A stretch of 61,561 nt of DNA from contig NZ_CAMAYF010000011.1 in the NCBI RefSeq assembly GCF_945862485.1, forward strand, positions 1 through 61,561, in the 5' to 3' direction. Under the pieces are notes generated by a model. The model was not told the origin of the DNA and did no database searches. It saw only the letters and a program-made list of their open reading frames with translations. A program made the position numbers and the translations under genes. This DNA comes from Sphingorhabdus sp. EL138 (GTDB lineage Bacteria > Pseudomonadota > Alphaproteobacteria > Sphingomonadales > Sphingomonadaceae). Positions 39,807 to 42,079 of this stretch are shown here, in pieces; within the stretch, counting starts at the first letter, position 1, and each line of letters opens with the position of its first letter.

Positions 39807-41102
39807 TTACTCCGCCGCCTCCAGCATATTGTCGCCCTTGGCTTCGTTAATCCGACGCTCCATCTCTGGACGGAAATGCTTAATCAGCCCTTGAATTGGC
39901 CACGCCGCTGCGTCGCCGAGCGCGCAGATGGTGTGGCCTTCAACCTGCTTGGTAACATCATACAATGTGTCGATGTCGCCAATCTCGGCATTGCCAGTAC
40001 GCATCTTTTCCATGACTCGCCACATCCAGCCTGTACCTTCACGGCAAGGTGTGCATTGGCCGCAACTTTCATGCTTGTAGAAATAGGAAAGCCGCGAGAT
40101 TGCCCGCACGATATCAGTGGACTTATCCATCACGATCACCGCTGCGGTACCAAGACCGGAGCCGACAGCTTTGCAGCCATCAAAGTCCATCGGTACATCC
40201 ATCATCATCGCTGCGGGAACCAATGGTACCGACGAGCCGCCGGGAATGACCGCCAAGAGATTGTCCCAACCGCCTCTTATACCGCCGCAATGCTTCTCAA
40301 TCAGTTCGCGGAAAGGGATGCCCATTTCTTCTTCGACCACGCATGGTTTTTCAACATGCCCGGAGATTTGGAACAGCTTCGTACCGTGGTTATTTTCGCG
40401 GCCAAAGCTTTTGAACCAAGCTGCGCCGCGCCGCAGGATCGTAGGCACAACCGCAATGCTTTCGACATTGTTGACTGTTGTAGGGCAACCATAGAGCCCT
40501 GCCCCTGCAGGAAATGGCGGCTTCAGGCGAGGTTGGCCCTTTTTGCCTTCCAGGCTTTCGATCATCGCGGTTTCTTCACCACAAATATACGCGCCCGCGC
40601 CGCGATGGACGAAGACATCAAAGTCATAGCCGGACTTGGCGGCATTCTTACCGAGCAAGCCTGCGGAATAGGCTTCGGCAACTGCCTTTTCGAGTATCTT
40701 GGCTTCAAAAATATATTCACCGCGAATATAGATATAGGCCGCACGCGCACGCATAGCGAAGCCAGCGATCAACGCTCCTTCGATCAGCTTATGCGGGTCA
40801 TGACGAATGATCTCGCGATCCTTGCACGAACCGGGCTCGGATTCATCGGCGTTGATAACGAGGAAATTCGGACGCTCGGGCGTCGGCGTCTTGGGCATGA
40901 AGCTCCACTTCATTCCTGTCGGGAACCCAGCGCCACCGCGCCCGCGCAGGCCGGAAGCTTTCACTTCCTCAATAATCGCATCCTGCCCGACCTTCATCAG
41001 GTCAGCAGTCTTGTCCCAATCACCACGTGCCTGCGCTGCTTTCAGGGCAAAATCCTGATAGCCGTATAAATTGGTAAAAATGCGGTCTTTGTCAGCGAGC
41101 AT
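39807..41102 (-). CDS. nuoF: NADH-quinone oxidoreductase subunit F
   Basis: NADH-oxidising flavoprotein subunit (FMN, cluster N3); 431 aa. '[16 protein letters not shown]' and '[15 protein letters not shown]' form the NADH/FMN sites, and '[15 protein letters not shown]' with a later Cys binds N3. The ATG at 41102 is preceded by GGAGG, which lies inside the small ORF upstream; that ORF's stop overlaps this ATG by one nucleotide. Confidence 0.97.
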
Positions 41103-41239
41103 CAGCCCAAACCTCCAAGAAAAAACCAAGCTGCCCCAGCGATGAGCAAACCAATAGCAGCGAGCTTAATAACACCCTTGAGCAATTTCCACGCGACGAA
41201 CGCGGCAATCAAAATGCCGATGAGAGGGAGAAATTCCAT
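41102..41239 (-). CDS. Unrecognised small membrane protein in the nuoE/nuoF junction (45 aa)
   Basis: A 45-codon ORF that fills the gap between nuoE and nuoF exactly. Its ATG overlaps the nuoE stop (TGATG) and its TGA overlaps the nuoF ATG (TGATG). A GGGGGGAA purine run sits about 6 nt upstream. The protein is almost entirely hydrophobic: two membrane segments ('[13 protein letters not shown]' and '[19 protein letters not shown]') joined by a basic turn 'KLLKGVIK'. I do not recognise a family. Position and coupling imply it is made with complex I; roles such as assembly factor or accessory subunit are inference only. Confidence 0.72.
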
Positions 41240-41907
41240 CAATATTCCCCCCGATAGTCATGGTTCTTATCAACCATCGCATGCAAGGTCGTCGCACCGC
41301 CATAAGGCTCCACCGTGTGGCGGCCCGGCAATTGGGTGCCAATCTTCGGCTGCTTACCCTCCGCCAAGTCTTTGAGGATCGCGGTCATGCTGCCATGATC
41401 GAGATCTTCGTAATTATCGTCGTTGATCTGAACCATCGGTGCAGACGCGCAATTGCCCATGCACTCCACTTCGTTCAGCGTAAACATGCCGTCGGGTGTC
41501 GTTGCACCTTTGACCAGTCCACGGCTCTTGCACGCCGCCAAAATATCATCCGACCCGCGCAACATGCATGGCGTCGTCCCGCACACTTGCACATGATAGC
41601 GGCCCACGGGCGCGAGATTGTACATCGTGTAGAAGGTCGCAACTTCGTAAGTGCGCATATAGGGCATGCCAAGATAGCTCGCGACATATTCGATCACCGG
41701 TACAGGTAGCCAACCCTGTGTATGCGTTTCTTCACCAACCTGACGCTGCGCCAAGTCAAGCAGCGCCATCACCGCCGATTGCTGACGTCCGGCGGGGTAG
41801 CGACCGATATACATATCGGCTCGTGCCTTATATTCCTTGGAAAAGGCGAAATTGCTCCATTTAGCACGAGTTTCGGCTTCATCTGGGATGTTTACTGCAT
41901 CAGCCAT
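41239..41907 (-). CDS. nuoE: NADH-quinone oxidoreductase subunit E
   Basis: Thioredoxin-like subunit with 2Fe-2S cluster N1a; 222 aa. Ligands are visible in 'VCGTTPCMLRGSDD' (CxxxxC) and 'ECMGNCASAPMVQI' (CxxxC). The C-terminal ~55 residues after the cluster are longer than in E. coli. The ATG at 41907 is chosen because the upstream part of the frame lies in the overlapping 59-codon ORF. Confidence 0.96.
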   Translation of the reverse strand: MADAVNIPDEAETRAKWSNFAFSKEYKARADMYIGRYPAGRQQSAVMALLDLAQRQVGEETHTQGWLPVPVIEYVASYLGMPYMRTYEVATFYTMYNLAPVGRYHVQVCGTTPCMLRGSDDILAACKSRGLVKGATTPDGMFTLNEVECMGNCASAPMVQINDDNYEDLDHGSMTAILKDLAEGKQPKIGTQLPGRHTVEPYGGATTLHAMVDKNHDYRGEY

Positions 41908-42079
41908 GTGCTTCTTTCCGTCCCCAAATCCGCCCGATATATGCGCCAAACATCATGGCTGCAGCGGTCGAACCCACTTCCTTTGCCGACACCTCGGCAT
42001 GAAACAAATAGAGATAGGCCGCGACCAACGCGACCGAGCCAAAAGCCGCAGATGCCAAAAACAGAAGCTCGCGAGTCAT
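41900..42079 (-). CDS. Unrecognised small membrane protein in the nuoD/nuoE junction (59 aa)
   Basis: A 59-codon ORF whose ATG overlaps the nuoD stop by one nucleotide (TGATG) and whose TGA lies 8 nt inside nuoE (ATGGCTGA). GGGGAG is 11 nt upstream. The protein has one strongly hydrophobic segment (about residues 5-26, 'LLFLASAAFGSVALVAAYLY'), a short acidic stretch ('FHAEVSAKEV'), a second weaker hydrophobic patch ('AAAMMFGAYIG') and a basic end ('RIWGRKEAHG'). No family recognised. The fit between two nuo genes argues for real translation. Confidence 0.7.
   Translation of the reverse strand: MTRELLFLASAAFGSVALVAAYLYLFHAEVSAKEVGSTAAAMMFGAYIGRIWGRKEAHG

Follow-up and report, generated by a model that had tools for sequence, protein, structure and literature searches.

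The nuoE-nuoF Junction and Its Occupant

The window, i.e., the whole stretch of 61,561 nucleotides that was analysed, covers positions 1 to 61,561 of contig NZ_CAMAYF010000011.1 of Sphingorhabdus sp. EL138 (assembly GCF_945862485.1). Its minus strand carries an operon that we take, by gene order, to run from nuoA (44937) to nuoN (30300). NuoE and NuoF are clear members of their families in profile tests, and the nearest named genomes, as judged by NuoE, are those of Sphingorhabdus and Sphingomonadales, with the NuoE of S. wooponensis being 95% identical. Between the two genes lies the small frame ORF45 (Table 1), which is present in one copy in the window's own genome. A reading of this DNA from its letters alone (the sequence-only reading) had proposed that the frame takes up the entire gap with a 1-nt TGATG overlap at both ends, and the coordinates bear this out: the A of the nuoE stop codon TGA is the first base of the ORF45 start codon, and the TGA of ORF45 overlaps the ATG of nuoF in the same manner.

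Table 1. Features at and around the nuoE-nuoF junction of the window.
Feature	Position	Strand	Basis or remark
ORF45, gene for a 45-aa hydrophobic protein	41102..41239	minus	1-nt overlap with the neighbour at each end; supported by family and dN/dS
nuoE, neighbour upstream of ORF45	41239..41907	minus	PF01257 (3.3e-52); TIGR01958 (3.8e-50)
nuoF, neighbour downstream of ORF45	39807..41102	minus	NF010120 (4.1e-247)
Conserved core of ORF45, A16-W-K-L-L-K-G-V-I-K25 (codons)	41165..41194	minus	Alignment A1, 47 members
GGGGGGAA, weak though purine-rich ribosome site of ORF45, in the nuoE tail	41245..41252	minus	3-nt contiguous Shine-Dalgarno match
GGAGG, Shine-Dalgarno site of nuoF	41112..41116	minus	Inside the last ORF45 codons; encodes GG of ...FLGGLG
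ORF59, another small membrane ORF, located at nuoD-nuoE and sharing bases with the nuoE start	41900..42079	minus	Profile matched in 30 of the 216 junctions inspected

A strong purine-rich ribosome site had also been ascribed to ORF45. The sequence upstream of its start, GGGGGGAA, is indeed rich in purines, but only 3 contiguous nt of it match the Shine-Dalgarno core that was applied; the strong site, GGAGGT, belongs to nuoF and sits inside ORF45, 8 nt before the nuoF start. A similar arrangement is seen in relatives. Among the 53 members of the ORF45 family described below, 34 begin within -6 to 0 nt of the nuoE stop, and 37 end in a stop codon that overlaps a possible nuoF start. In these 37 members, a Shine-Dalgarno match of at least 4 nt is present in 32 and absent in five, and GGAGG itself is found in the tail of 23. 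The codon usage of the tail is also particular: counted over the 53 members, GGA accounts for 44 of the 110 Gly codons among the seven final codons, as compared with 5 of the 134 in the body of the gene. The C-terminal Gly-Gly was considered as a case of conservation at the protein level, but this was rejected as it is explained by the Shine-Dalgarno site; on the codon counts, these residues are largely the ribosome site of nuoF. Since the tail of ORF45 holds this site, a plain deletion of ORF45 would confound nuoF expression. The seams at nuoE-nuoF junctions are 1-nt (TGATG or TAATG) or 4-nt (ATGA or GTGA) overlaps, and TGATG overlaps with coupling by termination-reinitiation are described in an excerpt of PMC6728339.

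Conservation of ORF45

Relatives were sought in 149 genomes of a group taken to be the family Sphingomonadaceae in the GTDB sense, as judged from the named loci. A NuoE match was found in 143 of these genomes and, with G007, G025, G097, G117, and G135 left out for partial or weak NuoE matches, 138 nuoE-nuoF junctions were read. A profile seeded with the ORF of the window and three relatives found a member of the ORF45 family in 53 of the 138 junctions, with lengths of 42-60 aa by the starts chosen. Alignment A1 comprises 47 of these members; L009, L028, L047, L055, L110, and L117 were excluded as near-copies or doubtful. Within the core, G22 and K25 are invariant and A16 and K18 are conserved in at least 90% of the aligned members, whilst the 51 members that carry the motif use differing synonymous codons for K, G, and A. 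At four loci (L140, L143, L146, and L149), an element is found between nuoE and ORF45, and the start and the frame of ORF45 are unbroken. By eye, these inserted elements are REP-like and palindromic, and three of the four are of the CACCCTGAACTTGTTTCAGGGTC type.

The sequence-only reading had suggested comparing ORF45 at the nuoE-nuoF junctions of sphingomonads by means of substitution ratios, and the outcome was favourable: frame and length are kept, and dN/dS of ORF45 was 0.04-0.32 in 11 close pairs chosen by hand. In the same pairs, the ratio was 0.03-0.22 for nuoE and 0.01-0.11 for nuoF. In all 11 pairs, ORF45 showed fewer amino-acid changes than given by random placement of the substitutions (P ≤ 0.0095). 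Over all 1378 pairs, in which the synonymous sites of the far pairs are saturated, median pN/pS was 0.70 for ORF45 vs. 0.33 for nuoE. By the latter measure the protein is fast-evolving, and by the ratios in close pairs its frame, length, and core residues are held by purifying selection. Thus, to judge from its sequence, ORF45 is a real protein-coding gene, coupled in its geometry to nuoE and nuoF.

Distribution of the Family

ORF45 is absent from 85 of the 138 family junctions, or from 78 if a divergent branch of Sphingomonas type, called branch B, is counted in. Comparison of branch B with ORF45 gave an hhalign probability of 85% (E 6e-6), as against at most 4.5% in 30 column-shuffled control comparisons. 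The two together occupy 60 of the 138 junctions, a count that adds seven junctions picked by eye (L062, L077, L080, L086, L113, L115, and L122). Branch B yielded 11 matches among the 149 genomes, all beside nuoE, and four of these are ORF45 members too.

In a named set of 80 loci, of which 79 were readable, 20 had an ORF45 match. All 14 readable loci with a NuoE that is at least 86% identical to that of the window are among them, the remaining matches being L208 and, with weak E-values of 1e-4 to 1e-3, five loci of Sphingomonas. Loci titled Sphingorhabdus but with a more distant NuoE (L160, L165, L166, and L214) gave no ORF45 match, and genome G068, which is placed in the window's own genus, has no ORF45 and carries an unrelated hydrophobic ORF of 70 aa in the slot (L007). 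On a quick tree of NuoE and NuoF, the presence of ORF45 requires 22 changes, at least ten of which are forced by well-supported branches, as compared with a mean of 42 when presence is shuffled. ORF45 is, on this tree, clustered but gained or lost repeatedly.

When 99 whole genomes of the family were searched with the A1 profile, 32 matched, once each, and all matches adjoin nuoE. Adjacency was judged by eye from the NuoE coordinates in this search as well as in those for branch B and for family C (see below). Part of the 32 matches are members of A1 itself, so that the informative point is that no match was found elsewhere in the 99 genomes. The four of these genomes that lack a NuoE match (G012, G024, G037, and G082), a small sample, have no ORF45 either. 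At the level of the order, 24 of 147 genomes matched, all in the same family, with adjacency to nuoE left unread for ten newly drawn genomes. A search of 289 genomes of the class returned, apart from the window, four partial matches, and no credible relative outside the family. The partial matches, considered as possible relatives, had E-values of 2.5e-4 to 4.3e-3, covered 21-26 of 46 positions, and lay in frames of 89-462 aa; they were taken as chance.

Family Identity and Topology

Searches of the libraries gave the protein no name. Pfam matches of the 47 aligned members were scattered and weak (13 families, best E 0.003), the most frequent one, Ycf66_N, concerning at most six of the 47 members (best E 0.007), and no family scored above its cut-off for the protein of the window. 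None of NDUFS4, NDUFS6, and NDUFA12 appeared among the Pfam matches, whether of the window protein (taken to E 10) or of the 47 members (taken to E 0.1). NCBIfam, searched with the window protein only, gave a best E of 6.8. No match marks it as a phage holin or other small phage membrane protein: PHROG support consisted of one unnamed family matched by one of the 47 members (E 0.005), with no match for the window protein. Among PDB sequences, the profile matched weakly to photosystem I subunit XII and a light-harvesting protein (E 0.058 and 0.78, respectively) and to no chain of a complex I-type enzyme. An origin from a core Nuo membrane subunit, as a fragment or by duplication, was rejected as well: in an hmmsearch with all filters off, NuoA, NuoH, and NuoJ-N appeared at E 15, and the best full-sequence match in the operon was ORF59 (E 1.5). 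In the literature on extra nuo frames, on this junction, and on small membrane proteins, the gene is not described as far as titles and the beginnings of abstracts go. The phrase "between nuoE and nuoF" does occur in an excerpt of PMC10101131, which concerns Acinetobacter inhibitors. Within the libraries and literature searched, ORF45 is thus an undescribed family of nuo-locked small membrane proteins.

Two membrane spans with a basic central turn had been proposed for the product. Two hydrophobic halves do flank K18, K21, and K25, but two spans are not established, as AlphaFold2, run with 17 sequences, models a single helix of residues 4-43 (mean pLDDT 91.4, pTM 0.48). A hydrophobic helix of 40 residues with three lysines mid-way would seem too long for one ordinary span, and short hairpins may come out straight in AlphaFold2 models.

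Other Small Membrane ORFs at the Junction

ORF45 is one of several occupants of this position. Of the 138 junctions, 43 are shorter than 60 nt, 53 contain ORF45, 29 lack ORF45 but contain other small hydrophobic ORFs, and 13 contain no such ORF. Other small hydrophobic ORFs are also present in 21 of the 53 junctions with ORF45. Considering the 95 family junctions of at least 60 nt, a small hydrophobic ORF lies wholly inside the junction in 81 on the sense strand vs. one on the antisense strand, and 200 first-order Markov simulations gave a mean of 3.6 and a maximum of eight. The excess persists without the ORF45 family: such an ORF is found in 28 of the 42 remaining junctions, with none antisense and 1.4 expected.

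Some of these occupants form families of their own. Family C (58 aa) is unrelated to ORF45 (hhalign probability 4.4%), and the probability for family D was 0.2%. Family C was matched 13 times among the 149 genomes, 12 times beside nuoE and once elsewhere; the lone copy far from nuo is at L295:3727-4020 on the minus strand in genome G064. In the close relatives L107 and L111, one junction is filled with family C and ORF45 and the other is empty, and coupling is kept in both; in L111, the nuoE stop runs directly into the nuoF start as TAATG.

The paracoccal and rhodobacterial nuo (nqo) operons carry unidentified reading frames. These resemble ORF45 in being small ORFs within a complex I operon. 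Extra frames in alphaproteobacterial nuo operons had been invoked for ORF45 by the sequence-only reading, but this could not be confirmed for nuoE-nuoF: of the 28 best-scoring loci outside the family that were read, 26 were usable, and in all 26 the gap was at most 51 nt. Unlike the slot of ORF45, the junction is closed in the other alphaproteobacterial families read, and the 289 genomes of the class hold no credible relative of ORF45 outside its own family. In seven other families of the order, the gap was at most 13 nt in 27 of 29 readable junctions, the other two having a small hydrophobic ORF inside (66 aa in one case and 62 aa in the other).

Within the operon, some positions are expanded more often than others. 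Among the named loci, the genes are frequently separated by 60 nt or more at nuoD-nuoE (56/79), nuoE-nuoF (40/79), and nuoF-nuoG (30/75) and rarely so at nuoA-nuoB (0/75), nuoB-nuoC (7/76), nuoC-nuoD (6/78), and nuoG-nuoH (3/51). At the nuoD-nuoE junction of many loci, e.g., L006, a SnoaL_2-like ORF is present, one of which was tested and matched PF12680 at 6.3e-14. A coiled-coil-like ORF of 75 aa also occurs at nuoD-nuoE, with look-alikes, identified by eye, at nuoE-nuoF of L005, L113, and L138. At nuoF-nuoG, e.g., in L160, L171, L188, and L208, ORFs of ~200-235 aa begin, by eye, with a signal-peptide-like segment.

Tentatively, the nuoE-nuoF seam in Sphingomonadaceae might be a cassette site, at which unrelated, (nearly) nuo-exclusive membrane microproteins are swapped as interchangeable accessories of complex I. 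This reading, which we would not put forward as the probable one, would cover the ORF45 family with branch B, family C with its 58 aa, and further ones, all joined by 1- or 4-nt overlaps and with tails that often contain the ribosome site of the next gene. If true, it would mean that a core respiratory enzyme bears an evolving, modular set of tiny subunits.

Possible Role of ORF45

As it was found only beside nuoE in 99 genomes, a link with complex I is what we infer as the best explanation. ORF45, a true gene with the layout for co-translation, would then most likely encode a protein that serves the sphingomonad complex I as a lineage-specific accessory subunit or as an aid in its assembly, a role to which we assign a probability of roughly one half. 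A role in assembly or stability of the complex is suggested by the exclusive linkage, the selection on the core, and the precedent of NdhP, a protein of ~5 kDa that belongs to NDH-1L and is required for this complex to form, according to an excerpt of PMC4131877. The same source describes NdhP and NdhQ as single-span NDH-1L subunits of under 5 kDa, and ORF45 is similar to them in its size of ~5 kDa, its hydrophobicity, its link with a complex I-type enzyme, and its restriction to a lineage. However, NdhP has been shown to bind its complex, whereas for ORF45 such binding is putative.

An accessory subunit would be expected to have a gene linked to those of complex I, to be under purifying selection, and to be present wherever that form of the complex occurs in the lineage. 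ORF45 lies beside nuoE in all 32 genome matches and shows low dN/dS ratios in the 11 hand-chosen pairs, but it occupies 53 of the 138 junctions, or 60 with branch B. Given the absences and the 22 changes on the tree, ORF45 is no general component of complex I, and it appears to be dispensable, as many relatives lack it or have a different small membrane ORF in its place. The patchy distribution, the fast evolution, and the unrelated ORFs in the slot argue against a role in complex I, and the first and last of these would also fit a generic role or a permissive site. Of the co-translated accessory or assembly protein that the sequence-only reading had envisaged, the coding gene, its coupled geometry, and, in 99 genomes, its exclusive association with nuo have been substantiated, but binding to complex I or a function in its assembly stays putative and the gene is missing from most junctions.

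The following course of events may be envisaged. Ribosomes that terminate on nuoE would reinitiate on ORF45 and then on nuoF, as suggested by the geometry, and the three products would thereby be made together. The ORF45 peptide would enter the membrane via its hydrophobic halves, with the W-K-x-x-x-G-x-x-K core facing the cytoplasm. This placing of the lysines is based on the positive-inside rule. The protein might then contact the membrane arm of complex I, or the junction between the membrane and peripheral arms, and stabilise the complex or speed up its assembly, as NdhP does in cyanobacterial NDH-1.

Other explanations have to be weighed against this one. Perhaps any short hydrophobic nascent peptide would do, pulling the polysome of the soluble NADH module (NuoE, NuoF, and NuoG) to the membrane, although we consider this improbable. 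The subunits would in that case meet the membrane arm, and sequence beyond hydrophobicity would matter little, which would allow unrelated ORFs to interchange. The abundance of small hydrophobic ORFs in the expanded junctions, even in 28 of 42 without the ORF45 family, agrees with such tethering, as do the presence of the unrelated families C and D in the same slot, the nearly nuo-exclusive location of family C (12/13), and the pair L107 and L111, one filled and one empty, with coupling kept in both. Yet the function would not be required in the 43 short junctions without an ORF or in the 13 expanded ones without a hydrophobic ORF, the junctions of the other alphaproteobacterial families read are closed, and the invariant G22 and K25 together with the low dN/dS suggest more than bulk hydrophobicity. 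Nor is it probable that ORF45 acts outside complex I and merely borrows the nuo promoter from a seam that, like nuoD-nuoE and nuoF-nuoG, is permissive. The frequent gaps of at least 60 nt at these three positions and their rarity at nuoA-nuoB, nuoB-nuoC, nuoC-nuoD, and nuoG-nuoH are consistent with a permissive site, and so are the patchy distribution of ORF45 and occupants such as the SnoaL_2-like ORF and the ORFs of ~200-235 aa with a signal-like start. However, a gene that travels in this way should at times sit elsewhere, and none did so for ORF45 in 99 genomes or for branch B in 149.

It is highly unlikely that the translation of ORF45 matters and its product does not, i.e., that the frame governs the NuoE:NuoF ratio through termination-reinitiation and harbours the ribosome site of nuoF. 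This idea accords with the Shine-Dalgarno matches in the tails (GGAGG in 23 and at least 4 nt in 32 of the 37 members with a stop codon that overlaps a possible nuoF start) and with the coupling at TGATG reported in the excerpt of PMC6728339, but nuoE directly adjoins nuoF in relatives without ORF45, and the constraint at the protein level is in the middle of ORF45, away from the ribosome site. The notion of a chance ORF in a spacer has the small size in its favour and nothing further; with the purifying selection, a relative in 53 of 138 junctions, and a single antisense case among 95, its likelihood is negligible.

Few enzymes have been studied as thoroughly as complex I, which in bacteria is generally regarded as a set of 14 core subunits with a small number of known additions. 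With a 5-kDa membrane protein conserved between nuoE and nuoF, and with unrelated nuo-linked microproteins in the same slot of relatives, bacterial complex I would gain and lose tiny accessory parts at the scale of genera. The slot of ORF45 would then offer a tractable system for the origin of supernumerary subunits.

Comparison with Alphaproteobacterial Complex I

Small hydrophobic parts of the complex are easily missed, since in Paracoccus even the core subunits Nqo7 and Nqo11 escaped mass spectrometry, likely because of their small size and hydrophobicity (PMC8115037, in excerpt). The structure of complex I from the alphaproteobacterium P. denitrificans contains no small extra membrane subunit according to an excerpt of PMC11522691, which counts against the proposed role of ORF45, although this organism is of another lineage. 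The extra parts described there for Paracoccus are NDUFS4, NDUFS6, and NDUFA12, together with PIMT; ORF45, as a candidate, would likewise be an extra part of the alphaproteobacterial enzyme. Homologues of NDUFA12 and NDUFS4 are present in the window's own genome, on other contigs and outside the nuo operon, and complex I in this organism is therefore likely of the alphaproteobacterial type with extras. In contrast to these two, ORF45 is located inside the nuo operon, is a hydrophobic protein of 45 aa, and has no Pfam match above the cut-off. The NDUFS4 match in the window's genome (G000:C8:16888-17157) shows one apparent TAA inside its frame.
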